The translations under genes were made by a program, and so were the position numbers. A DNA stretch of 29,034 nucleotides from Nitrospinota bacterium (lineage in GTDB: Bacteria; Nitrospinota; Nitrospinia; JACRGO01): assembly GCA_016212295.1 (NCBI GenBank), contig JACRGO010000003.1:1-29034 (forward strand), read 5' to 3'. Positions 8,114 through 22,951 of the stretch are shown piece after piece. Position 1 is the stretch's first letter. Each line of letters starts with the position of its first letter. Below the pieces are notes generated by a model. It saw only the letters and a list, made by a program, of their open reading frames with translations. It had not been told where the DNA came from and did no database searches.

Positions 8114-11100
8114 ATGCAAAAACTTGAAAGAAGGAAATTCCTTAAATTAAGCGCGGCCGCTGCCGCCGGAATTATCTTGTCCGGAATAGTCAGGGATTCC
8201 CTAGCGGCGTTGTCCCCCGTGGTGGATATAAAAAACCCCCTGGCCTATTATCCCGACAAGGACTGGGAAAAAGCGTACCACGACCAGTATAAGGCCGACC
8301 TCTCCTTTAAATTCCTGTGCGCCCCTAACGACACCCACAACTGCCGCCTCAGCGCCTTTGTAAGAAACGGGGTCATCACCAGGATGGAGCAGGCTTATGA
8401 TGTGGACCAGGCCGATGACCTTTACGGGAACAAGGCCACTCAAACCTGGCATCCGAGGGGTTGTCCCAGGGGACTGGCCTATATGCGGCGAAGCAACGGG
8501 CCCTTCCGGGTAAAATACCCGGCGGTGCGAAAGGGATGGAAGGAATGGTATGAAGCCGGGTTTCCCAGGGACCACGCCAACGGAAGGCCTCCGGCGAAAT
8601 TCATGAACAGGGGGACGGACGACTTTGCGCGGGTCACATGGGACGAGGTTTATGAAATGATCGCCAAGGCGTTGCTGGACATAGCGTCCACGTACAGCGG
8701 AAAAAGCGGGGCCGGTTTTCTGTTGAAACAGGGTTACCCGGAAGAGATGCTCCAGGGGATGAAGGACAAGGACGGCGGCATTGCGGGGGTCCGCGCCTTG
8801 AAATTCCGTGGAGGCATGGCGCTGCTAGGCGTCACCCGGCTCGCCGGCCTTTACCGTCTCGGCAATTCAATGGTTCTCCTGGACGATTACATCCGGAAAA
8901 AAGGACCGGACGCGTCAGCCGGGGCGACGCTGTGGGACAATTATGCCTGGCACACGGACCTTCCACCGGGCCAGCCAATGGTCCACGGCGCCCAGACCTT
9001 TGACCAGGAGTTTCATGATTTCTGGAATTCGGACCTTATCATTATCTCCGGCCTCAATATAGTTGAGAACAAGATGGCGGACCCTGTCTGGTGGCAAACC
9101 CACATGGAGAAAAAGAAAAAAATCGTTGTCATTGCACCGGAATATAATCCCACCGCCAGCAAGTCCGATTACTGGATACCTATCCGCTATGGCTGCGACG
9201 CGGCCTTGAACCTTGCGCTGTCCCACGTGATTATCAAGGAAGGACTCTGGGACGACGCCTATGTGAAAAAGTTCACGAACCAGCCCTTCCTTATTCGCAT
9301 GGACAATCTGAAACAGCTTAGATTCGAGGACATGGCGCCAGGAACCCCGCTCCTTGATCCGGGTGATGTATTGAGCATCGAACGCCTTGGAGGACACAAG
9401 GACACGCTTGGTACGATAGATGGAAAAATTCAATCCATTGAGCCTGAGTTCCAGACCAATTCAGTGATGATGGCAAAAAAGGGGCCTGTGGCCCTTACAA
9501 GGACCTGCTGCGGGGATTATGTGGACTCAGAGTTGAAGAAACTGGGAATGGAACTTGGGGACATTCAACTCGACTACAGCGGCGAGGCCCGGACCAAATC
9601 CGGCCCTGTGAAGGTGCGCACGGTCTTCAGCCTGTACAAGGAACTCCTTGAAGAGTATACCCCGGAAATTGTTGAGCGGGCGGCATGGTGTCCGGCTGAA
9701 AAGATCAGGAGGCTCGCGAAGGACATTGCGGAATCCAAGGCCGTCTCCTTTATCTGCGGCATGGGGATGAATATGTACCTCCATAACGATCTCATCAACA
9801 GGTCTTATTATCTGACAGCCACCCTGACCGGAAACATCGGAAAACCCGGGGCATGCGTATCCAGTTACGCGGGCAATTACAAGGCCCCGACTTTCAACGG
9901 GCTCCCTTCATGGATCATGGAAGACCCGTTCAACCAGACCCTTGATCCTGACGCGGATGGAACAGAAATCAAGAAGCGCAAATACGCCCGCTTTGAAAGC
10001 CAGCATTACTGGGCCCATGGGGACAGGCCGCTTATCGTCCAAACCCCCAAGGCAGGAAGGGTGGTTGTGACGGGCAGCACCCACATGCCTGCCCCAACCA
10101 AGATGATCTGGTCCAACAACGCTAACCAGATCGGAAACTCAAAATGGGCTTATGACGTTATAAAACGGTCCCTCCCGGAGCAGGAGCTATTGATCGCCAC
10201 GGACTTCGACTGGAACATGAATTGCGAGTATTCCGACATCGTCCTGGCAACGGAGGACTGGTCCTCATTCAGCCACCCTGATATGACCGCTTCCTGCACT
10301 AACCCCTTTCTCCAGTTCTGGCCGGTTTCCCCTCTGAAATCGATGTACGACACCAGGCACGACATAGAACACTACCTTGGCGTGGGCGAGGCCCTGGCCA
10401 GGATCACTGGAGACGCCAGATTTTCCAATCATTACAAGTTCGTCAAGGAGAAAAAAGTTGACGTCTATATGCAAAGGATCCTTGACGCCTCCACCCAGTT
10501 CAGGGGATACAAGGCCAGGGATTTAATTGAAAGGGGCGTGGGCGTCCTGGCCATGTTCAGGACCTATCCACGAATCCCGGCCTGGGAGAACATCAATGAA
10601 AGCGTTCCCTTTTTCACCAGGACCGGCAGAATGGAATTGTACCGGGAGGAAAACACTTGGATCAACCAGGGCGAGAACCTGATTTTGCACAGGGAGCCGG
10701 TTGAGGCCACGTTGTTCCAGACGAACGTCATTATCTCTCCCAAGGGATTCGAGGGGGTGCGGCCCAGGGATTACGGCATACCGGACGATGAAATAGACGG
10801 CGACGCCAAGACCCTTTACAACAAGATCTTCCAATGGGATTCCCTTCTCAGGACAACTAATCCCCTCACCAGGAAACACGGGCTTAATCTCCATTTCATA
10901 ACCCCTAAGCCCAGGCATCGCGCCCATTCCTCCTGGGGCGCCAGCGATTGGAACGTTATATGGTGCAGCAATTTCGGGGACCCTTACCGCATGGAAACAA
11001 GGACCCCCTGGGTAGGGGAAGAGGAAATGGACATCAACCCGGAAGACGCCAAGGAACTAGGCATCAAGGACGGCGATTGGGTGTGGGTGGACGCCAATCC

Positions 11101-11608
11101 GGAGGACCGGCCTTATGTCGGGATGAAAAAAGACGACCCCTATTACAAGGTCAGCCGCGCCATGATCCGTGTGCATTACAATCCTTCTTTTCCAAAGGGG
11201 ATGCTGAACGTAAAGCACGGGGCATACGGCGCAACGCACAAGTCGGTCGAGGCCCATGAAACACATGGAATCGCGATCACCGGCAGGGCGGCGGGCAGCT
11301 ACGCCGCGGCCTTCCGCTACGGGTCCCATCAATCCGCTGTGAGGACGTATCTCAATCCGACCCAAAGCGGGGACGAGTTCGCGCTTAAGGACTATTTCGA
11401 AAATAAAATGACCAAGGGATATTCCATGGACATGTACACCGTGACAGGGGCCCCCAAGGAGTCGCTTGTGAAAATCGCCTTTGCCGAACATGGGGGCCTG
11501 GACCGGAAAACCGCTTGGGAACCGGCCAAGACCGGGTTCACTCCCGGAAACCTCAATGAGGACATGAAAGGTTTCGTCGCGGGCGGGTTTATTATTTTTA
11601 AGTCGTAA
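8114..11608 (+). CDS. nxrA: Nitrite oxidoreductase-type alpha subunit (Mo-bis-PGD, DMSO reductase type II)
   Basis: The 1164-residue protein is a type II DMSO-reductase-family catalytic subunit closest in pattern to periplasmic NxrA, which interconverts nitrite and nitrate at a molybdenum bis-pyranopterin centre. The N-terminus is a Tat signal (RRKFLKL at residues 6-12, then a hydrophobic stretch). The FS0 cluster region is CAPNDTHNC (C69, H75, C77) followed by C117 in HPRGCPRG. D282 in WHTDLPPG aligns with the Asp that ligates molybdenum in NarG-type enzymes. The C-terminal domain near residues 960-1080 has the cofactor-binding pattern (NPEDAKELGIKDGDWVWVD). Length matches known NxrA (about 1150). 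Its expected partners nxrB and nxrC are not adjacent but lie 8.4 kb downstream. Relatives include nitrate, chlorate and selenate enzymes, so direction and substrate are inference. Confidence 0.9.
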   Translation: MQKLERRKFLKLSAAAAAGIILSGIVRDSLAALSPVVDIKNPLAYYPDKDWEKAYHDQYKADLSFKFLCAPNDTHNCRLSAFVRNGVITRMEQAYDVDQADDLYGNKATQTWHPRGCPRGLAYMRRSNGPFRVKYPAVRKGWKEWYEAGFPRDHANGRPPAKFMNRGTDDFARVTWDEVYEMIAKALLDIASTYSGKSGAGFLLKQGYPEEMLQGMKDKDGGIAGVRALKFRGGMALLGVTRLAGLYRLGNSMVLLDDYIRKKGPDASAGATLWDNYAWHTDLPPGQPMVHGAQTFDQEFHDFWNSDLIIISGLNIVENKMADPVWWQTHMEKKKKIVVIAPEYNPTASKSDYWIPIRYGCDAALNLALSHVIIKEGLWDDAYVKKFTNQPFLIRMDNLKQLRFEDMAPGTPLLDPGDVLSIERLGGHKDTLGTIDGKIQSIEPEFQTNSVMMAKKGPVALTRTCCGDYVDSELKKLGMELGDIQLDYSGEARTKSGPVKVRTVFSLYKELLEEYTPEIVERAAWCPAEKIRRLAKDIAESKAVSFICGMGMNMYLHNDLINRSYYLTATLTGNIGKPGACVSSYAGNYKAPTFNGLPSWIMEDPFNQTLDPDADGTEIKKRKYARFESQHYWAHGDRPLIVQTPKAGRVVVTGSTHMPAPTKMIWSNNANQIGNSKWAYDVIKRSLPEQELLIATDFDWNMNCEYSDIVLATEDWSSFSHPDMTASCTNPFLQFWPVSPLKSMYDTRHDIEHYLGVGEALARITGDARFSNHYKFVKEKKVDVYMQRILDASTQFRGYKARDLIERGVGVLAMFRTYPRIPAWENINESVPFFTRTGRMELYREENTWINQGENLILHREPVEATLFQTNVIISPKGFEGVRPRDYGIPDDEIDGDAKTLYNKIFQWDSLLRTTNPLTRKHGLNLHFITPKPRHRAHSSWGASDWNVIWCSNFGDPYRMETRTPWVGEEEMDINPEDAKELGIKDGDWVWVDANPEDRPYVGMKKDDPYYKVSRAMIRVHYNPSFPKGMLNVKHGAYGATHKSVEAHETHGIAITGRAAGSYAAAFRYGSHQSAVRTYLNPTQSGDEFALKDYFENKMTKGYSMDMYTVTGAPKESLVKIAFAEHGGLDRKTAWEPAKTGFTPGNLNEDMKGFVAGGFIIFKS

Positions 11609-11643
11609 ATAGATTTTAAATTTTCAAAACAGGAGAAGTTAAC

Positions 11644-11838
11644 ATGAGAGTAATTGAGGCTAAAATCCTTGATCAGACGCATTTAGAATTAACTCAACCT
11701 CTTCAAGCTAAAATGGGCGATTCTATTAAAATCATGATTAATGATGGCGTTGAAGACGAATACCCATGGCGCGAAGCCGGAAAGAATCAATTTTTAGAAG
11801 CGTATGATGAAAAGGATAGTATTTATGATAACCTTTGA
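11644..11838 (+). CDS. Antitoxin of a MazF/PemK-type module
   Basis: The 64-residue product (MRVIEAKILDQTHLELTQPL…) has a strand-rich N-terminus and a C-terminal acidic tail (WREAGKNQFLEAYDEKDSIYDNL) of the kind that wraps around a toxin. A strong ribosome site AGGAG precedes ATG 11644. It overlaps the remains of a MazF/PemK-like toxin starting at 11825, the usual order for such operons. The antitoxin is intact while its toxin is not. Confidence 0.65.
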   Translation: MRVIEAKILDQTHLELTQPLQAKMGDSIKIMINDGVEDEYPWREAGKNQFLEAYDEKDSIYDNL

Positions 11839-12056
11839 ATTTAGCGCCTATTACGACAAAAGTGAGGAAAGGGAAAGGTGATTTCATTATTAGGGATTGG
11901 CCGCAAGGCGGCTTATTGCTAAAATCCTGTTTACGACTGGCCAAGATTGCTTGTTTAAAAAAGAACGACATTACTAAAACTTTGGGGAAGGTTTCTGATT
12001 ATGACCGGAAAATGGTTTTGGATGTTTGGGATTCAGTTTATTCATTTTCCTGCTGA
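11825..12056 (+). pseudogene. MazF/PemK-like toxin remnant with internal deletion
   Basis: ATG 11825, overlapping the antitoxin stop by 14 bases, opens a frame MITFEF… that quickly reaches a stop at 11879-11881. In another frame, from about 11840 to 12056, the sequence encodes a convincing C-terminal half of a PemK-type RNase toxin (APITTKVRKGKGDFIIRDW, QGGLLLKSCLRLAKIACLKKNDI, KTLGKVSDYDRK). The strand-rich centre, roughly 40-50 residues, is missing and the frame changes at the junction near 11840. A TTG at 11835 could start translation of the C-terminal part (73 residues), but it would lack the N-terminal RNase core. I read it as a deletion remnant. Confidence 0.7.
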
Positions 12057-12060
12057 TATC

Positions 12061-12090
12061 GCATAGCGCGGCATGTCCGCAGCCAAAATA
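12061..12090 (+). repeat. REP-like hairpin repeat copy 1
   Basis: GCATAGCGCGGCATG-TCCGCAGCCAAAA recurs in variant form at 13910-13938, in part at 15006-15021, and inverted at 28820-28841. The core GCGGC…GCCGC can pair. The rest of the gap 12091-12293 holds an AT-rich region with an isolated TATAAT near 12167 and no gene. Confidence 0.5.
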
Positions 12091-12293
12091 AATTTCGATG
12101 CATTCAAACGTTCGATGATATTATTACGTTCAGAAATTCAGCTATTTTTCCCGGTGGAATTTTGGTATAATTGGCTTCCTTTGCCAAAAGGAAAATTTTA
12201 GGCATTTGTTTTCGCGGTGTTGCAAAGGTAACGGAAAATATTTTTAAAGGGAAAAAGGAGGTTATTTTAAATATGCTTTAACGGAGAAGATTC

Positions 12294-13109
12294 ATGAAAA
12301 AATCAAAATTCTTTTGTTCAGCAATATTTTTCTGCATGGCTTTTTTTCTGTTTTCCCCTTTGGCTGTCTGGGCCGATGAGACCGGCGGGTTGTTGGAGAC
12401 TATTGATAACCAGTCTGTAATCAAAATGCTGAAGGCTGGTTTGAGCGAGGAGGTTGTCATCGGGAAGATAAAAACCTCCAAAACCGGCTTTGACCTTACA
12501 ACCGACGGCCTTATAACGCTTAAGGAAAACGGGGTCAATAATAATGTCATAGAGGCTATGATGCAATCCCAAAAGCCTCTTCCCGCCTCCCCCGCGCAGC
12601 CGGAAGTATCTACACCAACGCAGTCCCCTCCGGAAATACCCCCATCCCAGGGACATCCAGGAAACATCCCTGGGCCGTACCCATATCTGAGTAGTCCTCT
12701 TCGCCGCGGCGACTGCAAAAGCCGCCTTGCCGAATTCCTGGGCGGAAATCCCGATTTTGATCCTGAAAAAGCTGGAGAAAACGCGCGCATGGGAAGCTTC
12801 CAACTCAACGCGGACAATAAAATCCAGGTCTTCGGCTCCCTGTCCGAGCGCTCGGCGAAATGCTTCCCCGTGAAACGAAGAGGCCAGACCGACCCCTATT
12901 CCGATAACACGCTGGTGAGTTTTGACGGCAGGATGTTTATTTTTCACGATTTTTACGAGGTCGGGAAGGATTCCGCCGTCGGGATTGTGAAGGATCTGGA
13001 AATCGGCGATTCCCGCGCCCCTCACATCAAGGACGCGCGTGTCACAACCCAGATCACCAGCCCCGCTCCGTCGGAGCGGATTATTATTAACCGGGGACAA
13101 AGGAAGTAG
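12294..13109 (+). CDS. Exported protein with a repeat-associated helical motif
   Basis: The 271-residue product opens with a Sec signal peptide (MKKSKFFCSAIFFCMAFFLFSPLAVWA). Residues about 40-92 hold a helical motif, SVIKMLKAGLSEEVVIGKIKTS, FDLTTDGLITLKENGVNNNVIEAMM, which is widespread in exported bacterial proteins of unknown role. A proline-rich linker (residues 95-130) follows, then a C-terminal beta-like domain. No catalytic signature is visible. It lies between two toxin-antitoxin loci in the DNA separating nxrA from nxrB. Its 3' end has a decayed second copy at 13824-13914, so this gene was partly duplicated. No clear ribosome site other than AACGGAGAAG upstream of ATG 12294. Confidence 0.65.
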   Translation: MKKSKFFCSAIFFCMAFFLFSPLAVWADETGGLLETIDNQSVIKMLKAGLSEEVVIGKIKTSKTGFDLTTDGLITLKENGVNNNVIEAMMQSQKPLPASPAQPEVSTPTQSPPEIPPSQGHPGNIPGPYPYLSSPLRRGDCKSRLAEFLGGNPDFDPEKAGENARMGSFQLNADNKIQVFGSLSERSAKCFPVKRRGQTDPYSDNTLVSFDGRMFIFHDFYEVGKDSAVGIVKDLEIGDSRAPHIKDARVTTQITSPAPSERIIINRGQRK

Positions 13110-13173
13110 CACGGAGTGGTCTTTGTGTCTTTGTGGTGAATAGTTAAAAATATTTTTTTTGGAAAAAACACTT

Positions 13174-13461
13174 ATGAAGAGCGTTCTTAAAAAACAAATA
13201 GAGGAAATGCCGGAGGGAGAGATCAGGGAAACCTTGCGGCGGGAATATTTGAGAAGATTGGTTCGTTACAGGATGACGGATGATTTTTTTAAGAAAAAAT
13301 ATGAAATGGATTTTGAAAATTTTGAGAAAAAGGAGATTGTCAAGAAAAAAAACTTCTCTTTTGAAGTGGAATCAGACTCTCAGGAATGGGAACTCTCGAT
13401 CCAGGGGATAAAAGAGGTCTTGAAAAAACTCAAGGAACTCTCGGATGAAGACATCAGTTGA
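13174..13461 (+). CDS. Antitoxin-like partner of a TumE-type toxin
   Basis: From ATG 13174 the product is 95 residues; a TTG 15 bases earlier is less likely. It is charged and helical (LKKQIEEMPEGEIRETLRREYLRRLVRYRMTDDFFKKKYEMDFENFEKKEIV), with a C-terminal helix (GIKEVLKKLKELSDEDIS). The FxxKYxMxFExFExKxIVK pattern is typical of small antitoxins placed before DUF6516/TumE genes. It overlaps the next gene by 17 bases, implying translational coupling. The identification as a TumA-type antitoxin is inference from order and pattern. Confidence 0.55.
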   Translation: MKSVLKKQIEEMPEGEIRETLRREYLRRLVRYRMTDDFFKKKYEMDFENFEKKEIVKKKNFSFEVESDSQEWELSIQGIKEVLKKLKELSDEDIS

Positions 13462-13789
13462 GGAAATTCTTGAAGAGGCGGAAAGAGTTGCTATTGAATA
13501 TGGTTTGCGGTTAATAGAGATTGAAAGGCTTGAAAATATTATAAGCCTGAAATTAGTAATCGACAAGGAACTTTTTATTCAAATTTATGGAAATTCGGAA
13601 AAAGAAAAGATCAACCTTGCCCTGGTTTTTTCAAACAAAAGATTATATGGGTTTGACTCCGAAGGCGGCAAGTACCATTGCCACTCATTTGATGATCCTG
13701 ATTCCCATGTTTTTCTGAATGAAAGAAAATCGGTAAAGGAGTTTGCCAGGGAATCACTGATGTTATTAGAGAAAAGAGGCTTTTTATAA
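13445..13789 (+). CDS. TumE/DUF6516-like toxin
   Basis: The 114-residue product has an N-terminal helix (EEILEEAERVAIEYGLRLIEIERLE), several strands (SLKLVIDKELFIQIYG), and a conserved-looking NKRLYGFDSEGGKYHCHSFDDPDSH segment with clustered His and Asp residues, followed by a C-terminal helix. The RLYGFD…H pattern resembles the DUF6516/TumE toxin family. Unlike most toxins in this stretch the gene is full length. It overlaps its antitoxin-like partner by 17 bases, starting at ATG 13445. Family assignment is moderate; the toxin role rests on gene order and pattern. Confidence 0.5.
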   Translation: MKTSVEEILEEAERVAIEYGLRLIEIERLENIISLKLVIDKELFIQIYGNSEKEKINLALVFSNKRLYGFDSEGGKYHCHSFDDPDSHVFLNERKSVKEFARESLMLLEKRGFL

Positions 13790-13823
13790 GAAAGCCGGAA
13801 TCATATCTGATTGGGCAAAAATA

Positions 13824-13914
13824 GGTGAATTTTGACGGCAGGATGTTTATCTTTCCTGATTTTTACGAGGCCGGGAAGGATTATTATTCATCGGGGACAA
13901 AGACAGTAGCATGG
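13824..13914 (+). pseudogene. Decayed duplicate of the 3' end of the 12294 gene
   Basis: Positions 13824-13882 match 12914-12972 and 13883-13914 match 13083-13114, with scattered substitutions. The 110 bases between these blocks in the original are missing here, and the junction lies exactly on the pentamer GGATT, present at both ends of the lost segment (12968-12972 and 13078-13082). This is a clear microhomology deletion within a partial gene duplication. The copy carries no usable start. Confidence 0.75.
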
Positions 13915-13938
13915 CGCGGCCTTTGGCCGCAACCAAAA
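13910..13938 (+). repeat. REP-like hairpin repeat copy 2
   Basis: GCATGGCGCGGCCTTTGGCCGC forms a perfect GCGGCC-TTT-GGCCGC hairpin and is followed by AACCAAAA. It joins the duplicated gene end on the left to structured repeat copy B on the right. Related to 12061-12090 and the inverted copy at 28820-28841. Confidence 0.6.
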
Positions 13939-14035
13939 AGAAAATATGAGCCTCTCGATTCCATCACGATTTTAAAATAGTTTTTATTTAATCGAGAAGA
14001 AATCTCGAAGCAATCGTGAAGCTGAAAAACTGGAA
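13926..14035. repeat. Dispersed structured repeat, copy B
   Basis: This is the second copy of the element at 5058-5172. The outer stem TCACGATT (13964-13971) pairs perfectly with AATCGTGA (14012-14019), and the inner stem TCGAGA (13992-13997) with TCTCGA (14003-14008). Flanking AACCAAAAAG…AGCCTC and GAAGCTGAAAAAC are conserved with copy A. It lies immediately upstream of the nucleotidyltransferase gene. Confidence 0.6.
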
Positions 14036-14092
14036 AAAACTTTGCTGAAAAAACAAAGTTTTATGGATTTGCAGCACGGAGCGGAGGAAATA

Positions 14093-14434
14093 GTGACATT
14101 AAAAGAATTGAATCTGAGAGATAACGAGCGGGAAGCCATGCTGGAATTAAAGGAAAGAGTGCTTGAAAAATTTCCGGAAGCCGAGATTATTCTTTATGGT
14201 TCAAAGGCAAGAGGAGATTTTGGCAATGAATCCGACATGGATTTACTAATTCTTATTGACTCGCAGGTTAACAGCAAGTTGGAGGAAGAAATTACCCATA
14301 TTACCTTTGCTTTAGAGCTGAAACATGATGTGGTTTTTGGGAAAATCGTGGAAAATAAAAATTTCTGGGACACTCCTTTGGCGAATGCCATGCCTCTCCA
14401 CCAAAATATAGACAGAGAGGGAGTTCGCGTATGA
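14093..14434 (+). CDS. MNT-type nucleotidyltransferase (antitoxin of MNT/HEPN pair)
   Basis: The best start is GTG 14093, five bases behind GGAGG (14083-14087), giving 113 residues; the frame is open a further 17 codons upstream. The core is YGSKARGDFGNESDMDLLILID, the GS(x)nDxD motif of polymerase-beta-type minimal nucleotidyltransferases, preceded by a helix LELKERVLEKFPEAEIIL. In MNT/HEPN modules this enzyme neutralises the HEPN RNase, in some cases by adding AMP to it. The stop overlaps the ATG of a HEPN gene by four bases (14431-14434), the usual arrangement, but that gene is broken after eight codons. Confidence 0.8.
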   Translation: MTLKELNLRDNEREAMLELKERVLEKFPEAEIILYGSKARGDFGNESDMDLLILIDSQVNSKLEEEITHITFALELKHDVVFGKIVENKNFWDTPLANAMPLHQNIDREGVRV

Positions 14435-14700
14435 AGCAGGAGTTTGTCGACCTGGGGAGTTCAATTCCGGCATGTGCGACAGGAGACAAAAAGGCGATTA
14501 TAAGAAGCTGTCTTGAAAAAAACGTTTACCCTGAAAAACAAACATGCGGTTGCAATAAGAAGCCCGCTGACACACCCCGGCCTTCGGCCACCCCTCTCAA
14601 GAGGGGAATTTTTCATAGGAAAAAATTTTATATCCGTTCACAGGTTCAAGGTTCAGAGTTGAAAAACCGTCAAACACGGCAATGTTGCAAGGTTTTTTAG
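14431..14700 (+). pseudogene. Broken HEPN gene start (toxin partner of 14093 MNT)
   Basis: ATG 14431 overlaps the MNT stop and encodes MKQEFVDL, a typical opening of HEPN partners, but afterwards the residues (GSSIPACATGDKKAIIRS…) do not resemble HEPN and run into the palindromic element at 14571. The frame ends at 14700. Beyond the first eight codons I see insertion or rearrangement, not a functional gene. A separate HEPN-like fragment lies at 15091-15195 and may be the displaced remainder. Confidence 0.55.
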
Positions 14701-14967
14701 GGCGCTCCACATTGTGGACCTGTTGGTTAACCTGCTTAGTAACGCTCAATGAAAATCCGCATGGGTAAGCGGGTTTTGGAGATAAGCGTGGATACAGGGT
14801 TTTCTAAAACCTGGAACCCTGAACCGTGAACGGTTACAAAATTTTTAATCGCCGGAGGTATGATTCCACGCGGTTTGCCGCGGCGCCTTATTCCTTACTC
14901 CTTATTGAAATAGCGCCACCACCTATAAATTCCCCTCTTGAGAGGGGTGGCCGAAGGCCGGGGTGTG
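14571..14967. repeat. 397-bp interrupted palindrome (MITE-like element)
   Basis: The ends are a perfect 41-base inverted repeat: 14571-14611 and 14927-14967. Each arm itself contains two hairpins (GGCCTTCGGCC, and CCCCTCT-CA-AGAGGGG). A second, imperfect inverted pair lies inside (about 14621-14660 against 14806-14847, sharing CCGTTCAC…GGTTCA). The centre has AAAATCCGC…GCGGGTTTT at 14752-14776 and TCCACATTGTGGA at 14706-14718. The right half has about 80 extra bases, so the element is asymmetric. No open frame of gene-like quality is present. The whole gap 14455-15090 is otherwise without genes. Confidence 0.75.
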
Positions 14968-15005
14968 TTAAGGATTTTGTGGCATTTGAAGAAGAGGATG
15001 TAAAG

Positions 15006-15036
15006 GCATGGCGCGGCCTTTGCGTCTTTGCGTGAA
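15006..15036 (+). repeat. Composite of REP-like and 'ctttgcg' repeats
   Basis: GCATGGCGCGGCCTTT (as at 13910) runs directly into CTTTGCGTCTTTGCGTGAA, the arm of the dispersed family seen at 7893-7980 and near 13115. It shows that the two repeat families can be joined. Confidence 0.45.
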
Positions 15037-15090
15037 CTTTTTTATTTTTGGTTTAGGCTTGCCAGGGTTAGGTATTATAATAGACGCACA

Positions 15091-15195
15091 ATGCAATTTT
15101 TGGAGGATGCCGAAAAGAAGATCGGCAAAGCGGAAGTGAAATTAAAGGAGGTGGGCAGGGTTTTGATTTATGAAGAGGCGGGCCGTTTGGCGTGA
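15091..15195 (+). pseudogene. HEPN-like N-terminal fragment
   Basis: ATG 15091 opens 34 codons (MQFLEDAEKKIGKAEVKLKE, then YEEAGRLA) with the helix pattern of HEPN-domain N-termini, then stops at a TGA where a full HEPN would continue for another 90 or so residues. It lies downstream of the broken HEPN start at 14431 with the palindromic element between them. It may be the rest of that gene or an unrelated remnant. Confidence 0.4.
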
Positions 15196-15336
15196 TACAG
15201 GCAAAAACATTCACTTTCAAATGTTCAGCCAAAAACGATGGATATTGATGTTTCAAGGAAGACTTTGGAAGCCAAAGGACATAAAAAAAACTGTGGGATT
15301 CACCCTGCAATGCTTTTTGATGAAAGGAGACGGGAA

Positions 15337-16191
15337 ATGAAAAAGAAATTTGTAGCAGGAATTTTGATGGCGGTGGTTTTTCTCGCGTGTGGCGAAAAGA
15401 GCCCGCTTGAAAAATTGCGAAGTGACTTGGAGGGGAAATATTTCACCTCCAAAAAAGATGAGTTGACGATTCACTTCATGCCTAAATTCATGCCCGCAAA
15501 GGACATTTATGATGGCATGCAGCAGTACGATATGCACACGTCGTTGTCATTCGGACTCTCTGCTGGTCCCGTGTCCGCGAACGCGAAAGTGGATCCGGTG
15601 CTTTCTATGTTCATCGATAGTTGCAAGGGGAAAATTCCCGACAAACCTGGGCCCATGGACTGGATGCTACCGGAGTCCGAGCGGGAGAAAAAAAGAAACG
15701 CTCCGAAGAACAGCGATCACCCGGACCAGTGCATGAGTGTGGCATACGCGATCATGCTACGCAATGCCGCGAGCGGTAATCAAGTTATCGATTTCGTGGA
15801 CAGCCCGGAGTGGAAGAGAGAGAAGCTGAAATCAGCTTTGAGCGACAATCGTTGTAAAACTGCGAGTATAGCCCGTAAATTTTTGATATTTCTTAAACAG
15901 AATGAAGAGATTAATTTCAAGAAGTACGGAGTATTTACAGATGATGTTGAGGAGATAACTTCCCTTCCTGAATCTACCAAAGGCGCTCGAAGAGGAAAGG
16001 TCTATTATTACAACACCTCGATTGTTTTATCTAACAACAAAAAAGAATTTATTGCAACCATGAGTCCGGACGAGAACGGTAAAAAGGCCGGTCTCATCGG
16101 GACGTGGACGGTGACGGAAAAAAGCCATCCGAATGAGGAAGATCCAAAAACTTTCGGAGGCACCGCCGTCACCTCCGGATTATTTTATTAA
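15337..16191 (+). CDS. Putative lipoprotein of unknown function
   Basis: I choose ATG 15337, behind AAAGGAG, because it opens a classical lipoprotein signal (MKKKFVAGILMAVVFLAC-GE, lipobox FLAC, lipidation at C18); the frame is open another 33 codons upstream without a signal. The product is 284 residues. The mature part starts with a charged helix, contains paired Cys (CKGK, QCMS, NRCK) and ends in a strand-rich segment (GKVYYYNTSIVLS, GLIGTWTVTEKS, GGTAVTSGLFY). I do not recognise the family. It is followed by a strong terminator at 16201-16236. Together with the next gene it shares TCG/GCG/CTC-rich stretches unlike its neighbours and may have arrived from another lineage. Confidence 0.6.
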   Translation: MKKKFVAGILMAVVFLACGEKSPLEKLRSDLEGKYFTSKKDELTIHFMPKFMPAKDIYDGMQQYDMHTSLSFGLSAGPVSANAKVDPVLSMFIDSCKGKIPDKPGPMDWMLPESEREKKRNAPKNSDHPDQCMSVAYAIMLRNAASGNQVIDFVDSPEWKREKLKSALSDNRCKTASIARKFLIFLKQNEEINFKKYGVFTDDVEEITSLPESTKGARRGKVYYYNTSIVLSNNKKEFIATMSPDENGKKAGLIGTWTVTEKSHPNEEDPKTFGGTAVTSGLFY

Positions 16192-16200
16192 CAAACATTT

Positions 16201-16236
16201 AAACCCCTCGGAGTCAAATGATTCCGAGGGGTTTTG
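16201..16236 (+). terminator. Rho-independent terminator after the lipoprotein gene
   Basis: AAACCCCTCGGA and TTCCGAGGGGTTTT pair across a GTCAAATGA loop, with a T-tract at the 3' side. It begins ten bases after the stop codon at 16191. Confidence 0.9.
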
Positions 16237-16237
16237 A

Positions 16238-16266
16238 TTGAACAAGATTTTTTGATTCGGTAAAAT
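16238..16266 (+). promoter_or_regulatory. Promoter of the VirB6/TrbL-like gene, nearly leaderless
   Basis: TTGAAC (16238-16243) and TAAAAT (16261-16266) are 17 bases apart, directly behind the terminator stem. The expected start site near 16273 is only about four bases before ATG 16277, and no ribosome site is present. Confidence 0.5.
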
Positions 16267-16276
16267 ACCCTGAAAA

Positions 16277-17584
16277 ATGAAAAACAAAATCTCAAAAATA
16301 ATCCTCGGAATTGCGTTCGTTATTTTTTCGATCGGAAGTTTCCCGGAGACGAGTTTTGCTAATTCTGCTGCTTGGTTTGCTTATGAAGGTTGCAATGCAA
16401 CATCTTACGATGAATGGTTAGCATCGCCATGTCGTCGAAATACAGCATGTGATTCATCTCTCTCACATTATGATGAATAGCAATGTTCAGCAGCAAAGGA
16501 GGAGTGGAATAAACAGCATCCGGAGAATAGTCGTTCCAAAGTAGTAAATGGGAGAAATGATGTCACAAAGAGAAATAATCGTGCAGTTTTAAAGGATGCC
16601 GCCAGTACCGCCTTCAGCTGGCTATTAGACAACGTCATCATCAAACCTTTGAGTTGGTTAGCAATGTGGTTTTTCGTGGTCTCCAAGTTCGTGATCAATT
16701 TTCTCCTGGGAGCTATCACGTGGATCGACGACAAGACGTACGAAGTCCCGCCGACAGTTTTCGAATTTTGGAAAAAACTTTCCGAAATCGCACTTTCGCT
16801 CGTCGTCCTCGCCGGAGCGTTGTCCGCATTCCTCATCTCCACCCACTCCGCGAAAGAGGAGGACGCCCGGACGGTCGTCTCTAACTTGGTGAAAGTCGTC
16901 GTCGCGATCGCGCTTTCGTGGTCGATCGCGATTTTCGTCATTGAGCAAGCGCAGATCCTCGAGAAGGCGATTTACGCGACCGGCAAGGCGGGCGAGAACA
17001 TCAGCTCCGCGATGGGCAAATTCAAGAAAGATATTAAGATCGACAACATCGGCTTGGACAACCCATCCAGCACGGGTGGGCAAATATGCGAGAAGTCCGA
17101 CGGCGAAGGGTTTAAGCTCGCGCGGCTGGTGGTGCAAGATGTCTCGCTTTTTTATTTCATCGTGCCACTCGTGATCGTGCTCTTCACGTACATCATCCGA
17201 CTCGCCGCGATGTACGTCTTGCTCGGACTCGTCGGGATGGCGGCGCTCGGGCTTTTTTCGCCGAAGATCCGGAAGCTTTTTGAAATGTGGTACACGAAAT
17301 TTATCACCGTGCTCAAAATCCCGCTCATCCTCGCGGTCTTCGTCTCGGTCGCTTTCATCCTCATGGACGTGATTGAAAATACCGTGGCCGGGACAGTCAC
17401 CGCCGATTCTTGTGTGATTGCGCTCTTCGGTGTTTTTGGCAAAGACTCGACAGAAATTTTTAAAAATCTCGTGAAGTACACGCTCGGCGTGCTCATCATC
17501 ATCAAAGGCTGCCACGTCGCGGCGTCGAACCATGGATTCTTGATAAAGCCCCTCTTTTTTTTAGAAGCATTGGAAAAGCCTTAA
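16277..17584 (+). pseudogene. VirB6/TrbL-like membrane protein gene with an in-frame TAG
   Basis: ATG 16277 opens a Sec signal peptide (MKNKISKIILGIAFVIFSIGSFPETSFA) and a Cys-containing segment, then meets TAG at 16478-16480 (codon 68). The same frame continues without another stop to 17584, with coherent protein on both sides of the TAG (SHYDE stop QCSAAKEEWNK). The downstream part, over 310 residues, has about six membrane segments, a KEEDARTVVSNLVKVVVAIALSW region and RLAAMYVLLGLVGMAALGLFSPKIRK, as in VirB6/TrbL-type channel components of type IV secretion systems. A CAG to TAG mutation is the simplest cause. A TTG restart at 16649 has no ribosome site. The C-terminus is short for such proteins. 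Codon use is strongly TCG/GCG/CTC-biased, suggesting foreign origin. Confidence 0.6.
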
Positions 17585-17601
17585 TCCCGTGAGATAATAA
17601 G

Positions 17602-17664
17602 CTGAAGTTAAAGCTTCAGGCGGGCAAAAAAGGATTCAGAATCCAGGAGCCAGAAGTCAGAATA
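17602..17664. repeat. Small hairpin and 'agccagaa-cagaat' repeat
   Basis: CTGAAG (17602-17607) pairs with CTTCAG (17614-17619); no T-tract follows, so it is a poor terminator. Then GATTCAGAATCC…GAGCCAGAAGTCAGAAT at about 17632-17662 is a phrase found again, with variation, at 27490-27521 downstream of modC. Confidence 0.4.
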
Positions 17665-17718
17665 TGAAAAAAATGCCAGGCGGTAACAGGCTACGCTATT
17701 ACAAAAGGAGTTCCACCC

Positions 17719-17769
17719 ATGCCAATCATTTCCATGTTTTACGGGATCATGATTATCGATCCCCTGTGA
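17719..17769 (+). pseudogene. DUF4160 toxin-like gene reduced to its two ends
   Basis: The 16-codon frame MPIISMFYGIMIIDPL begins like DUF4160 proteins (MPTISMFYGI…) and ends like them (…IDPL), with the 60-70 residues normally in between missing. AAAGGAG lies upstream of ATG 17719. The intact DUF2442 gene follows ten bases later, the usual partner order for this toxin-antitoxin-like pair. An internal deletion is the best explanation. Confidence 0.6.
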
Positions 17770-17778
17770 GGTGATACC

Positions 17779-18081
17779 ATGTACTGGGATGTCAAAACCG
17801 TTAAACCGTTGCCGGATTATCGTATCTATGTCGAGACCGAGGATGGGCAAAAGGGAATTTTTGACCTGAAGCCCTATCTTGATCATGGCGTATTTCGAGA
17901 GCTTCGGGATGTGCATTACTTCAATCAGGCGGGCATCCTGTTCGGCGCGGTCACTTGGCCTCACGAGCAGGACATTGCGCCGGAGACCCTGCTTGCCGAA
18001 ATGGTTCCCCTTGGTCCGAACCTCGCGCCTGACATTGAGTTCGAGAGGGACGCACCAAAAACATCACGCCCCTCAACTTAA
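17779..18081 (+). CDS. DUF2442 protein (antitoxin-like partner of DUF4160)
   Basis: The 100-residue product (MYWDVKTVKPLPDYRIYVETEDGQKGIFDLKPYL…) has the DUF2442 pattern: a two-strand hairpin, the F/LKP(Y)L motif, VFRELRDVHYFNQAGILFGAVTWPHEQDIAPETL. These proteins fold as small N-terminal beta domains and are commonly encoded directly after DUF4160 genes. A ribosome site (GAGGTG) precedes ATG 17779. The DUF4160 partner here is a 16-codon remnant. The residues after about 85 (PDIEFERDAPKTSRPST) look variable. Role as an antitoxin is inference from gene order. Confidence 0.8.
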   Translation: MYWDVKTVKPLPDYRIYVETEDGQKGIFDLKPYLDHGVFRELRDVHYFNQAGILFGAVTWPHEQDIAPETLLAEMVPLGPNLAPDIEFERDAPKTSRPST

Positions 18082-18150
18082 TCATTAGGTGTTTTGGTGT
18101 TTGAAATAAACGATATTTTATGTTCAACCGTCACGGAGTAATCTGAATAC

Positions 18151-18324
18151 ATGAAGAAATTTAGTGTATACATAGAAACCTCGATCATCAGTTACTTAGC
18201 GGCTAAGCCAAGCCGAGACTTGCTTACCGCCGCATGTCAGCAAATTACAGTCGAATGGTGGGAAGACAAGCGAAACGAATATAATCTTTTCACATCTGAG
18301 CTGGTAGTGAAAAATGAAAAATGA
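18151..18324 (+). pseudogene. VapC-like PIN toxin truncated to its N-terminal third
   Basis: ATG 18151 encodes 57 residues, KKFSVYIETSIISYLAAKPSRDLLTAACQQITVEWWEDKR, YNLFTSELVV, which match the N-terminal third of a PIN-domain subfamily beginning YIETSIxSYL. Normal length is about 140-150; here the frame ends with KNEK at a TGA overlapping the start of the antitoxin-like gene. The rest of the PIN domain, including later acidic active-site residues, is missing, so nuclease activity is not expected. Confidence 0.7.
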
Positions 18325-18511
18325 AATTCTATCAGAAGTCTGGCGCAACAGAGATGAATTCGCCAAACGACATAATTACGACCTCACCGCAATGGTTGCT
18401 ACATTGCAAGAGATGGAACGTCATCCATTGAGCGCTATAGTTGACAGAAGCAAAGAAACACCTAACAAATCGTTGCAGCAGACGGCGAGGAAAGGCACTC
18501 GCCGCTGCTGA
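18314..18511 (+). CDS. Antitoxin-like partner of the PIN toxin
   Basis: The 65-residue product starts MKNEILSEVWRNRDEFAKRHNYDLTAMVATLQEMERHPLSAIVDRSKE, a pattern of small antitoxins that follow YIETS-type PIN genes. It overlaps the truncated toxin by 11 bases. The last 17 residues (PNKSLQQTARKGTRRC) are encoded by the attC-like hairpin at 18461-18526, so the ancestral C-terminus was probably replaced or extended by that element. No independent ribosome site is apparent. Confidence 0.55.
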   Translation: MKNEILSEVWRNRDEFAKRHNYDLTAMVATLQEMERHPLSAIVDRSKETPNKSLQQTARKGTRRC

Positions 18512-18526
18512 TGCCGGACGTTCGAC
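18461..18526. repeat. attC-like hairpin (possible integron-cassette site)
   Basis: The 66 bases run from CCTAAC to GTTCGAC. Inner arms CAGCAG-AC-GGCGAG and CTCGCC-G-CTGCTG pair with unpaired AC/G bulges, around a GAAAGGCA loop, and the outer ends carry AAC…GTT core-like ends. This layout (complementary ends, unequal bulges, location at the end of one small gene and just before another) resembles attC recombination sites. No integrase is in the window and the right core does not fit the RRRY rule perfectly, so another hairpin repeat family is possible. Confidence 0.4.
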
Positions 18527-18547
18527 TATTAAAAAGGAGGATTCGTA

Positions 18548-18970
18548 ATGAGAAAAACCTGGGTTTACAGCCCTCATAGCGGCGGCGTGAAGATTCCACC
18601 CGCTGTCCAGGAGCGAACAAGGAACCGCATTCTCTCCTATGCGGAGAAGAATTATTCAGGGAAATATACCCGGATTGAGATGCGTTTCCGTGGGCAACTT
18701 TGCTATATCGACGCCTACACAGAACCCTTTATTCCCAAGGATTACCGCGGGAAACTCTTTGGGGAGTCGCGGGAGGATAGAATCGAACGGCTTCGCAATA
18801 TACCGACGCACCTATGCAGGCTCAGGTACTTTGGAGACGAGGACCGCTGGTCAATGGCCTTTTACAAGTACAGCGATGAGAAGTATGAGCCAAGCATTTT
18901 CAACAATGGAACATTTCATGGCACGCCCGAGGAAGCGTTTGAAACCTCCGCGGTCTACCTGCAGGATTAA
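18548..18970 (+). CDS. Conserved-looking hypothetical protein
   Basis: The 140-residue product starts at ATG 18548 behind a strong AAGGAGG site. It is soluble and mixed alpha/beta: WVYSPHSGGVKIPPAVQERTRNRILSYAEKNYSGKYTRIEMRFRGQLCYIDAYTEP, then LRNIPTHLCRLRYFGDEDRWSMAFYKYSDEKYEPSIFNNGTFHGTPEEAFETSAVYL. No signal peptide, membrane segment or catalytic motif is seen. I do not recognise a named domain. It lies immediately after the attC-like hairpin, as a mobile cassette gene would, and ahead of an intact MNT/HEPN pair. Confidence 0.65.
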   Translation: MRKTWVYSPHSGGVKIPPAVQERTRNRILSYAEKNYSGKYTRIEMRFRGQLCYIDAYTEPFIPKDYRGKLFGESREDRIERLRNIPTHLCRLRYFGDEDRWSMAFYKYSDEKYEPSIFNNGTFHGTPEEAFETSAVYLQD

Positions 18971-19061
18971 GATTTCCAAAGGAGGCATAGCAGGTCGCTT
19001 AATAGGACCGATCTGTGGAAAGCGGAAGAAGACAAAATTCTTGAAAAAGGAGGGGCCTGGC

Positions 19062-19388
19062 ATGCAAGGGATTAATTCCAAATTGATTGAAACGGTTAAG
19101 GGCAAATTAATAAATGCCTATAATCCTATGGAAATTTACCTTTTTGGTTCTTCGGCTTGGGGAACGCCTGGTGATGAGAGCGATTTGGATTTGCTTATTG
19201 TGGTGGAAAAGTCCTCGGAAAAACCATATAAGCGGTCCATTAAGGGCTTAAAGGCTTTAAGAGGTTTAAAAATTGCCGAAGACATTTTGGTTTACACCAA
19301 GGATGAGTTTAAGGAACTCTCAATTGATATTTCCACCCTGTGTTTTAAAATTAAAAATGAAGGCATAAAGCTCTATGAAGCAGCATGA
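19062..19388 (+). CDS. MNT-type nucleotidyltransferase (antitoxin)
   Basis: From ATG 19062, behind AAAGGAGG, the product is 108 residues; the reading frame is open far upstream, overlapping the previous gene out of frame, but that part is not conserved. The core motif is FGSSAWGTPGDESDLDLLIVVE, the GS…DxD metal-binding pattern of minimal nucleotidyltransferases. It is followed by a HEPN gene that overlaps it by 14 bases, an intact MNT/HEPN toxin-antitoxin module in which the MNT protein counteracts the HEPN RNase. This is the second such module in the island; the first (14093) has lost its HEPN. Confidence 0.85.
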   Translation: MQGINSKLIETVKGKLINAYNPMEIYLFGSSAWGTPGDESDLDLLIVVEKSSEKPYKRSIKGLKALRGLKIAEDILVYTKDEFKELSIDISTLCFKIKNEGIKLYEAA

Positions 19389-19764
19389 GGTTTGGCTGGT
19401 TAAAGCCGAAAATGATTTAAAATCGGCCAAAAAACTAATTGAAGGCGATGACCCCATTTTAGATACCGCCATCTACCATACCCAACAATGCGCTGAAAAG
19501 GCTTTAAAAGCCTACCTTTCCTTCCTGCAAAAACCTATCCAAAAAATCCATAATCTTGGATTATTGGTTGACCTCTGCTCTGATTGCGATAAGGATTTTG
19601 CAGCGCTTTTGGACGACGCGGAAGAATTGAGTCCATACGATACCGCGTTTAGATATCCGGACCTTATTTTAGAGCCTGATAAAAAAGACGTAAGTGACGC
19701 CATTGAAAAAAGCGAAAAGATACTTTATTTTGTTAAACAGAAAATAAGAAGACCTCAAATATGA
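19375..19764 (+). CDS. HEPN-domain protein (toxin of MNT/HEPN pair)
   Basis: The 129-residue product is the HEPN partner of the preceding MNT gene. It begins HEVWLVKAENDLKSAKKLIEGDDPILDTAIYHTQQCAEKALKAYLSFL, the classical HEPN helix pair with the HTQQCAEKALKAYL core, then a KIHNLGLLVDLC helix and SPYDTAFRYPDL near residue 90. No full R-x4-6-H RNase motif is visible, so activity may differ from the best-studied HEPN toxins. Length is complete. ATG 19375 overlaps the MNT gene by 14 bases. Confidence 0.85.
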   Translation: MKQHEVWLVKAENDLKSAKKLIEGDDPILDTAIYHTQQCAEKALKAYLSFLQKPIQKIHNLGLLVDLCSDCDKDFAALLDDAEELSPYDTAFRYPDLILEPDKKDVSDAIEKSEKILYFVKQKIRRPQI

Positions 19765-19792
19765 AGAAGAAATTATCAAGGAGCCGCGGAAC

Positions 19793-19942
19793 GTGCCTGA
19801 TGATCAAATTTTTAATCTTCTCAGTATCATACGCATTTTTAAAAAAAGTATAATTACGCGGAGAGAAGTGGATTTCCATCTCAAACAAGAATTTGGCGAG
19901 TGGGATACTTTAAGCGATGAGGCACTGTTACTGCTGTTCTAA
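19793..19942 (+). CDS. Possible small protein
   Basis: GTG 19793 lies nine bases behind AAGGAG and opens 49 codons (VPDDQIFNLLSIIRIFKKSIITRREVDFHLKQEFGEWDTLSDEALLLLF). The composition is protein-like and the tail (W-x-LSDEALLLL) resembles small uncharacterised proteins. A rival frame from ATG 19761 covers the same DNA less convincingly. No family is recognised. Downstream to 20071 I see no gene and no clear nxrB promoter. Confidence 0.35.
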   Translation: MPDDQIFNLLSIIRIFKKSIITRREVDFHLKQEFGEWDTLSDEALLLLF

Positions 19943-20071
19943 TTGTTTCTTTCACCACGCAAATGAAGGCCGCTAATTTTCCGTATAGATGAAAACCAAG
20001 AAAGTTGTGGAAGTTATTTTTCTATAACTTTAGACTCTTTAGTTCCTAATAACTTACTAACGAAAAAAATC

Positions 20072-21214
20072 ATGGTGAGAGACGACCTGACCAAGGTCTA
20101 CAATCGGCAATTGCGCAGGGAAATGGACTACTCCTATGACTCCGCGCGGCCAAAGAGGCAGATAGCATACATCTTTGACATAAACCGCTGCATCGGCTGC
20201 CAGACCTGCACCATAGCTTGCAAGTCCACCTGGACCTTCGGAAAGGGCCAGGAATACATGTGGTGGAACAACGTGGAAAGCAAGCCCTTCGGGTCCTATC
20301 CCCAGCACTGGGACATAAAATTGCTAGCCATGCTTGGCCCTCAACAATGGGACAAGGGAGTCTACGCGGGGAAGACCATTTTCGAGTCGGCCCCGGAAGA
20401 CGAGAAGTACCTTGGGTTCCGCGTCAAAGAGCAGGAATGGCGCTTCCCCAACATGTATGAAGACACCGCCACGGGCCACGATATGCAAGGCGTGGACGCC
20501 GCGAAAAAACACGGAGTATGGTTTCATTACCTGCAAAGGATATGCAACCATTGCACTTATCCCGCCTGCCTGGCCGCCTGTCCGCGCAAGGCAATATATA
20601 AAAGGGACGAGGACGGCATTGTCCTGATAGACCAATCAAGATGCCGGGGTTACCGCGAATGCGTGGGCGCGTGTCCATACAAGAAATCCATGTACAGGCC
20701 TGAAAGCAGGACGAGCGAGAAATGCATCGCCTGTTTCCCCAGGGTCGAAAAAGGGGAGATGCCGCGCTGCGTCGTGGCCTGCGTTGGAAAGATAAGGCTG
20801 CAAGGATACCTGACGACCGACCCAAGGAGGGCCGACCCGAATAATCCCATTGATTACCTTGTCCATTTTGAAAAGGTGGCCTTGCCGTTGTACCCTCAAT
20901 TCGGCACTGAGCCTAATGTCTATTATCTTCCGCCTAGATGGGTCCCCCTGGAGTATCTGGGCCAGTTGTTCGGTCCGGGCGTGGAAGAGGCCATAGCAAA
21001 GCGGACCGATCCCAGCGACAAACTCTTCGCGTGCCTGCGGTGTTTCGGGATGCAGCGGGACGTCCTTTACAGGTTTGAACTCCAGAACGGCCGTGTGCTA
21101 GCGTATAACGACAAGGACGAAAAGGTCATTGATCTGGCCTTGAAGGACGAGCCTTTTTATGAAAGACCCATGGTGGACAAGGAAAGGAATACACTGAGGA
21201 TTAACGAGCCATAG
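20072..21214 (+). CDS. nxrB: Nitrite oxidoreductase-type beta subunit (four Fe-S clusters)
   Basis: The 380-residue protein carries four cysteine groups that relay electrons from NxrA. Group I is C40, C43, C46, C50 (CIGCQTCTIAC, then KSTWTFGKGQEYMWWNNVE). Group II is C158, C161, C166, C170. Group III is C191-x2-Y194-x2-C197-x3-C201, where the second position is Tyr, consistent with the 3Fe-4S cluster of NarH-type subunits. Group IV is C218, C221, C233, C237. The GQEYMWWNNVE-x-KP-x-G-x-YPQ segment is a hallmark of NxrB from Nitrospira, Nitrospina and anammox bacteria. There is no signal peptide, as expected if it is exported with the Tat-bearing NxrA. No ribosome site precedes ATG 20072. nxrC follows 183 bp later. 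Confidence 0.92.
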   Translation: MVRDDLTKVYNRQLRREMDYSYDSARPKRQIAYIFDINRCIGCQTCTIACKSTWTFGKGQEYMWWNNVESKPFGSYPQHWDIKLLAMLGPQQWDKGVYAGKTIFESAPEDEKYLGFRVKEQEWRFPNMYEDTATGHDMQGVDAAKKHGVWFHYLQRICNHCTYPACLAACPRKAIYKRDEDGIVLIDQSRCRGYRECVGACPYKKSMYRPESRTSEKCIACFPRVEKGEMPRCVVACVGKIRLQGYLTTDPRRADPNNPIDYLVHFEKVALPLYPQFGTEPNVYYLPPRWVPLEYLGQLFGPGVEEAIAKRTDPSDKLFACLRCFGMQRDVLYRFELQNGRVLAYNDKDEKVIDLALKDEPFYERPMVDKERNTLRINEP

Positions 21215-21397: not shown

Positions 21398-22246
21398 ATG
21401 AAAAAAACATTGTTACTCATATTTTTCTTCGTTCTCGTTTCCCATTCAGTAAATGCGAACGCCGAGCACCCGGAGCACCCGGAGCCTCCGTCAGTGACTT
21501 ACACTGTGTCCGTTGAGGACGCCGGAAACCGCGAAATCCCTCTGGACCCCTTCAATATGGAATTCTGGGGCGGAGTTCCAGGCACGGATTTATTATTGGA
21601 GATGCAAAAAGTCGTCAGGCCAATGGGGGGCGGCACGATTCACGAACTCAGGGTCCAGGCCGTCCACAACGCTACGTCCATAGCCTTTCTTCTTGAATGG
21701 AAGGATGACACGCCTGATTGGGAGAATTTGCTGCTGTACGCCGACGCCGCCGCGGTTGAATTTCCGTCCGACGGGGGAGAAGAAGGGTCCGCCTTCATGG
21801 GGGACGCCGCGCACATGGTCAATATCTGGCACTGGAAGGCCGATTGGCAAAGGAACATGCAGGGAGGCTTTCAGGACACCAGGAGCGCCTTCCCGTCCAT
21901 GTTCAGCAACTATTCAACAGGTGATTTGATGGATAACGTGGCCGAGGCGGTGGGGAACCCCAATTCCAGCCGAATTCAAACCTCTCCCGTGGCGGCCTTT
22001 TTAGCCAAGGGCTTCGGGACCCTGACCTTCAATTCATACCAGAACGTCCGCGGGCGGGGGGATTACAGGGACGGGAAATGGCGCGTGGTTTTCCTGAGGG
22101 GCCTCGAAACCCCTTCTAAAATAGAGGCCCAGTTCAAGAAAGGGGTCAAGAATTTCGCCGCCTTCGCGGTTTGGGACGGAAAGCATAGGGAGCGGAACGG
22201 CATGAAGTCCTTCACCAAAAACTGGGCGCATCTGATTATCAAGTAA
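21398..22246 (+). CDS. nxrC: Nxr-type gamma subunit, ethylbenzene-dehydrogenase-related haem-b protein
   Basis: The 282-residue protein has a Sec signal peptide (MKKTLLLIFFFVLVSHSVNANA-EH) and the strand-rich fold of the haem-binding gamma subunits of type II DMSO-reductase complexes (ethylbenzene dehydrogenase gamma, NxrC candidates). Recognisable parts are IPLDPFNMEFWGGVPG, ELRVQAVHNATSIAFLLEWKDDTPD, DAAHMVNIWHWKADWQ and the C-terminal FAVWDGKHRERNGMKS. In this family haem b is bound by Met and Lys; M140-K147-like residues of the HMVNIWHWK segment and the late Met-Lys are candidates. No membrane anchor is present, so the complex would be soluble or attached by another protein. Its 3' end is overlapped antisense by the hsp20 read-through frame. 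Confidence 0.85.
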   Translation: MKKTLLLIFFFVLVSHSVNANAEHPEHPEPPSVTYTVSVEDAGNREIPLDPFNMEFWGGVPGTDLLLEMQKVVRPMGGGTIHELRVQAVHNATSIAFLLEWKDDTPDWENLLLYADAAAVEFPSDGGEEGSAFMGDAAHMVNIWHWKADWQRNMQGGFQDTRSAFPSMFSNYSTGDLMDNVAEAVGNPNSSRIQTSPVAAFLAKGFGTLTFNSYQNVRGRGDYRDGKWRVVFLRGLETPSKIEAQFKKGVKNFAAFAVWDGKHRERNGMKSFTKNWAHLIIK

Positions 22247-22750: not shown

Positions 22751-22891
22751 AAGTAGAGTCCTCCTTTTAAATTGGTTTTAGCCGCTTAATTGGATAGCGC
22801 CCGCCTTTCTGATTTTTTTATACAATTGGAAATTTTTTTTTTGTCAAGCGGCAAAAAATTGCTTTTTACAAAAAGACCCTCAAAAAAATCC

Positions 22892-22920
22892 TTGACGTTC
22901 GTTATTCCTTTTGGTATATT
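22892..22920 (+). promoter_or_regulatory. Sigma-70 type promoter of modE
   Basis: TTGACG (22892-22897) and TATATT (22915-22920) with a 17-base spacer, 32 bases before ATG 22952. Same -35 hexamer as the nxrA promoter. The -10 lies inside the candidate ModE box 22900-22923. Confidence 0.7.
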
Positions 22921-22923: not shown

Positions 22924-22951
22924 CTCCTGTGCATACAAAAATTTGAAACCA

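Follow-up and report, generated by a model that had tools for sequence, protein, structure and literature searches.

In Nitrospina gracilis, the nxrABC genes for nitrite oxidoreductase (NXR) lie side by side in the order A-B-C, belong to the canonical NXR clade, and encode an alpha subunit with a twin-arginine translocation (Tat) motif, a beta subunit, and a heme-b gamma subunit (PMC3578206). In the anammox organism Scalindua, the alpha (scal00863) and beta (scal00867) genes are separated by other nxr-cluster genes (PMC3655542). According to a phylum-wide comparative study, NXR and nitrate reductase (NAR) are hard to separate by similarity and phylogeny (PMC10839748). Here we describe an NXR-like locus in a Nitrospinota bacterium (assembly GCA_016212295.1) that shares the A-B-C order and the Tat-like and heme-b features with N. 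gracilis but falls outside the canonical clade and has alpha and beta 8,463 bp apart. The stretch analyzed, hereafter the window, is one entire contig (C235, 29,034 bp) of a 3.74-Mb draft genome in 237 contigs. In our judgment, an ancestral contiguous alpha-beta-gamma operon was very probably broken open in this species by a stepwise build-up of mobile or selfish DNA.

Subunit genes in the window and in related genomes

The alpha stop codon ends at position 11608 and beta starts at 20072, so that the separation given in the earlier note is exact; its statement that both genes are intact was borne out by the open reading frames (ORFs) listed below, and the gamma ORF is intact as well.

8114–11608, + strand: NXR-like alpha (molybdopterin) subunit, 1,164 amino acids (aa); Tat-like RR motif; Pfam Molybdopterin
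11609–20071, + strand: insertion zone between alpha and beta, 8,463 bp, where the congener has 85 bp instead
20072–21214, + strand: NXR-like beta (Fe-S) subunit, 380 aa
21215–21397, no strand: R3, a dispersed palindromic repeat occupying the beta-gamma gap (183 bp); hairpin z = -8.3
21398–22246, + strand: gamma subunit (heme b, ethylbenzene-dehydrogenase-like), 282 aa; EB_dh 8.2e-29

The sole other genome of the genus compared was "Nitrospinia bacterium" OFTM173, whose prefix matches that of metagenome-assembled genomes from work on a subsea tunnel in the Oslofjord (PMC10732223). There the three genes are contiguous (A, 593–4096; B, 4182–5336; C, 5336–6205), with 85 bp between alpha and beta and with gamma overlapping the beta stop codon, and alignment with the window DNA is confined to the three subunit genes. 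R3, which has relatives at dozens of places, is not found in this congener. Both junctions of the window operon have thus been invaded, one by the alpha-beta island and the other by the repeat that fills the beta-gamma gap.

The window's own genome encodes a second, divergent NXR-like complex on contig C105 (8053–14546), with A, B, C, and a TorD-like gene side by side. This locus might have corresponded to a second nxrAB copy wrongly joined into the window, yet identity to the window subunits is only about 41% for A and 53% for B, and its genes are contiguous. C105 also carries cytochrome oxidase genes, and no C105-type orthologue was seen in the congener. At least 15 other Nitrospinota alpha-beta pairs located on one contig have a gap of about 94 to 378 bp, as calculated from match coordinates, and in the archaeon Candidatus Hecatella orcuttiae the A and B ORFs overlap. 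Contiguity in the congener, at the C105 locus, in other Nitrospinota, and in Hecatella indicates that the split is derived. The earlier note had raised the possibility of a split locus typical of the lineage. To this we assign next to no probability: the Scalindua spacing shows that a separated arrangement can be stable, but A and B adjoin in the congener and in every other pair examined, and the anammox spacing consists of nxr-cluster genes rather than of decayed toxin-antitoxin (TA) genes and repeats. Literature searches recovered no nxrA/nxrB pair split by insertion.

The window alpha is 84% identical to its OFTM173 orthologue, and nonsynonymous divergence (dN) between the two loci is 0.106 (A), 0.142 (B), and 0.338 (C); synonymous divergence (dS) is saturated, and no dN/dS ratio is therefore given for the congeners. 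The intact ORFs and the low amino acid divergence suggest that selection acted on the subunits through most of their past, although not necessarily since the split.

Contents and layering of the intervening DNA

The island is poor in genes. ORFs of at least 150 aa cover 41% of it. In 226 stretches of 8.46 kb sampled from the same genome (contig C150, which read only N, was left out), this coverage never fell below 58.5% and had a median of 78%; the island was again the lowest with a 100-aa cut-off. It contains the following features.

11644–11838, + strand: small ORF without a family match; overlaps the PemK-like remnant; only its position suggests an antitoxin
11832–12056, + strand: PemK/MazF-like toxin remnant; PemK_toxin E = 0.053, under the Pfam cut-off
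12059–12138, + strand: short dispersed repeat, with further copies on contigs C109 and C5
12294–13109, + strand: ORF, function unknown, whose start resembles a signal peptide; 3' part partly duplicated at 13824–13925
13159–13789, + strand: two small overlapping ORFs of 100 and 114 aa; only their arrangement is TA-like; no family
14042–14434, + strand: orphan MNT-type nucleotidyltransferase (antitoxin); NTP_transf_2 1.3e-11
14431–15017, + strand: dead HEPN gene; pieces 14434–14455, 14460–14504, and 14971–15017 align to a sister gene, the middle being deleted
14505–14970, no strand: R1, a repeat resembling a miniature inverted-repeat transposable element (MITE), in the dead HEPN gene; ~260 bp without R2
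14630–14837, no strand: R2, a repeat nested in R1, with an 8-bp AAAATTTT duplication on both sides
15238–16191, + strand: ORF without a family; an internal start resembles that of a lipoprotein
16481–17584, + strand: TrbL/VirB6-like membrane protein; TrbL 8.4e-07
17685–18081, + strand: DUF2442 gene; DUF2442 8.1e-16; possible DUF4160-like start upstream (by eye)
18142–18511, + strand: PIN-like fragment (by eye, no Pfam match), plus a short ORF that at its end runs through the attC-like site
18460–18526, + strand: attC-like site (ACCTAAC, an imperfect hairpin in which one A is unpaired, and a nonconsensus GTTCGAC)
18548–18970, + strand: ORF of unknown function, beginning 22 bp past the attC-like site
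19062–19764, + strand: intact MNT/HEPN pair (type VII TA-like); HEPN 4.8e-24

The layers are most readily told apart in the dead HEPN gene, for which an intact MNT/HEPN pair on OFTM173 contig C595 served as the comparator; the orphan MNT gene beside it is 77% identical at the nucleotide level to the MNT of that pair. The first ~8 codons of the HEPN gene are kept, its middle is gone, 45 bp of it resume, R1 and R2 interrupt it, and the final 47 bp follow; the later two pieces outscore all 2,000 shuffles. Copies of R1 on contigs C142 and C96 lack R2 and provide the uninterrupted comparators. R1 and R2 are multi-copy and noncoding, R2 has a target duplication in addition to these comparators, and both repeats are MITE-like. 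Copies of R1 lie at dozens of places in the genome and at many contig ends, an abundance that probably limits the assembly.

Other parts of the island also have counterparts elsewhere in the genome, with 88% identical copies of the DUF2442 gene on contig C49 and of the intact MNT/HEPN pair on contig C147. HEPN matches number 6 in this genome and 11 in the congener but nearly zero in f5 and f7, two families belonging to the same class, pointing to a genus rich in such modules. In the PemK-like remnant, residues 4 to 63 align to profile positions 40 to 102, the N-terminal portion being absent. The partial duplication of the end of the 12294–13109 ORF spans 102 bp and follows the two small overlapping ORFs. 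The intact pair at 19062–19764 has an NTP_transf_2 antitoxin gene adjoining a HEPN toxin gene, as in type VII TA systems, and its MNT matches the MntA model at 2.9e-06 (27.1 bits, under the curated 60-bit cut-off). PADLOC matched only the nucleotidyltransferases, assigning them to candidate systems such as PDC-S09, and an Rfam scan of the window gave zero matches.

These data bear out much of what the earlier note had proposed for the region. The recognizable modules (PemK-like remnant, MNT, TrbL/VirB6-like, DUF2442, and MNT/HEPN) do all lie on the + strand, and the decay and repeats that it reported are present in the form of a 59-nt repeat pair (12914/13824), a perfect 42-nt inverted repeat (14570/14927), and a HEPN gene cut to three short pieces. 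Its "toxin-antitoxin island" holds for one intact pair; the remainder comprises genes that are decayed or stand without a partner, two ORFs resembling secreted proteins, the TrbL-like gene, and noncoding repeats. Its "accumulation zone" is well supported by the nested repeats and by the module copies elsewhere in the genome, while the qualifier "recent" needs care in view of a layered history that includes a pair, a deletion, a MITE, and a further MITE nested in it.

Could the island instead have entered as one unit, as an integrative element or an integron cassette array? The TrbL/VirB6-like ORF, the shared direction of the recognizable genes, and the attC-like site would fit such an origin, as would the three full-length integron integrases that the genome encodes on contigs C146, C3, and C182. 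However, none of these integrases is on the window contig, neither a relaxase nor an integrase nor any mating-pair gene other than the TrbL-like ORF was recognized among the island ORFs, and a scan of low sensitivity found only one attC-like site, with a nonconsensus 3' core. In addition, the parts differ in kind and age and are nested, and the copies of MNT/HEPN, DUF2442, and R1/R2 lie on different contigs, not together. Entry as a single mobile element is thus improbable.

The attC-like site itself has a consensus 5' core, a nonconsensus 3' core, and a folding equalled by only 1 of 200 shuffles. It was the sole window match of a scan that was insensitive, missing at the same threshold an attC-like site near the C3 integrase (score 16), and whose threshold was set after the candidate had been seen, making the chance figure of 0.05 matches per shuffled window at that score optimistic. 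Two stricter attC scans, with thresholds that were too strict, found nothing. The site is plausibly a relic attC, bearing at most on the segment from ~18.1 to 19.0 kb. The C3 integrase is adjoined by its attC-like site (12825–12911) and a glyoxalase-like cassette gene, and a broken integrase is present on contig C50.

Origin and consequences of the split

An origin of the split in several steps is the most likely. The starting state would have been an operon with alpha, beta, and gamma adjacent, encoding an NXR-like periplasmic molybdoenzyme. Between alpha and beta it would then have taken up TA modules and MITE-like repeats, along with a partial duplication of local DNA and, possibly, a relic integron cassette; the palindromic repeat R3 would have entered between beta and gamma. 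The sequences directly show the contiguity in the congener, at C105, and in other Nitrospinota, the module copies elsewhere in the genome, the insertion of R2 into R1, and the destruction of one HEPN gene. The order of events we infer, and the intervening DNA would be tolerated rather than useful.

Several points weigh against this stepwise reading. The polarity of the change depends on the outgroups and on a single congener, whose contig is only 7 kb; continuity across the island was judged from the assembly alone; no flanking direct repeat bounding the whole island was found; and with a 200-aa ORF cut-off, 7 of the 226 sampled windows are equally gene poor. R1, moreover, is multi-copy and many contigs end in it, so that the island may have been misjoined at this repeat. 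This last point raises the alternative of an assembly chimera, in which unrelated pieces were joined and alpha and beta are truly adjacent. The presence of R1 (14505–14970) at dozens of places and contig ends and the draft state of the genome leave room for it, as do the TrbL-like segment, for which searches of 29 further Nitrospinota genomes, of plasmids, and of viral contigs detected no relatives, and the mildly atypical trinucleotide composition of the island (91st to 97th percentile). On the other side, the junctions at 11609 and 20071 are both outside repeats, no other contig carries a second end of the window alpha or start of the window beta, and there are zero N bases in the window. 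Even a misjoin at R1 would still leave ~2.9 kb after alpha and ~5 kb before beta, and copies or relatives of modules from either side of R1 occur at other sites of this genome. As judged from the assembled sequence, error at the two junctions is unlikely, and we give the chimera as a whole a small probability, if a larger one than entry as a single element.

A different question is whether the split marks the early loss of a redundant enzyme, an outcome compatible with stepwise opening of the operon since it does not concern the cause. The second NXR-like complex on C105, the invasion of both gene junctions, and the lack of a TorD-like gene beside the window operon would all fit a dying complex. 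The three subunit ORFs are nevertheless intact, and the congener, which is without a C105-type copy, retains the orthologue. We consider this outcome possible but rather doubtful.

The claim that nxrA and nxrB must be expressed separately was not substantiated: in the stretch from the MNT/HEPN pair to beta (19765–20071), a consensus scan found no strong promoter (no promoter-like site of at least 9/12) and no + strand terminator. Transcription of beta-gamma would start at a promoter of its own or read through from the MNT/HEPN pair, which lies 307 bp upstream. It is very unlikely, in our view, that the split is functional in the sense that beta-gamma is driven by the MNT/HEPN promoter or read-through, the make-up of the complex tracking the TA operon and loss of the intervening DNA being penalized.

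The enzyme and its relation to known systems

The window alpha aligns over residues 3 to 1160 with Kuenenia NxrA (PDB 7b04) at 990 bits, the next family reaching 137 bits, and this full-length match to a solved NXR places it among the type II DMSO reductase alpha subunits. A marine-type Nitrospinota reference alpha, by comparison, scores 1,702 bits against the same protein, and the window alpha is about 42% identical to the marine type. The beta tree joins the window sequence to those of OFTM173 and Hecatella (support 91/90), outside the canonical NXR group (96/97) that comprises the Kuenenia and Nitrospina-type sequences. The molybdenum-site motif is WHTDLPPG in the window, OFTM173, and Hecatella, versus WHGDQAPG in marine-type Nitrospinota. 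The gamma subunit scores under the cut-off of TIGR03477. The "nxr" of the earlier note is better given as "nxr-like." In light of the position outside the canonical clade, the archaeal grouping, the different motif, and the difficulty of separating NXR from NAR, we refer to the complex as NXR-like and treat nitrite oxidation as a putative activity.

A molybdate uptake cluster lies downstream of the operon, with ModA above its cut-off. The region at 22790–27484, near the molybdoenzyme genes, comprises a ModE-like regulator, a broken porin, and a modABC-like molybdate transporter. The porin gene (phosphate-selective, 23388–24707) runs in three frames and is either a pseudogene or affected by sequence error.

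Overall, the locus offers a within-genus pairing of an intact and an opened operon for a multi-subunit respiratory enzyme, in which single insertion steps can be read. Rules based on gene adjacency can overlook split loci of this type, and caution is warranted with "nxr" calls in uncultured Nitrospinota, which may denote an NXR-like clade of unproven direction that is common to an archaeon. The event is of an ordinary kind, if unusually legible, and does not represent a new kind of gene system.

The closest relative found outside the genus is the Hecatella NXR-like complex (alpha ~58% and beta ~63% identity, same DLPP motif), which differs in being archaeal and in having overlapping A and B genes followed by a TorD-like gene; copper-protein-like genes precede it. 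The pair at 19062–19764 resembles MntA/HepT (type VII) pairs in its NTP_transf_2 and HEPN genes with overlapping ends, but its MntA score is under the curated cut-off and its TA activity is putative. The repeats share with MITEs and dispersed palindromic repeats their small size, noncoding nature, multiple copies, inverted repeats, and, for R2, target duplication; they differ in that a mobilizing transposase for R1/R2 was not identified (mobilization by the genome's transposases was not put to the test). As in the nxr cluster of Scalindua profunda (PMC3655542), finally, alpha and beta are nonadjacent, but what lies between them is nxr-cluster genes in that organism and TA genes, remnants, and repeats in the window.

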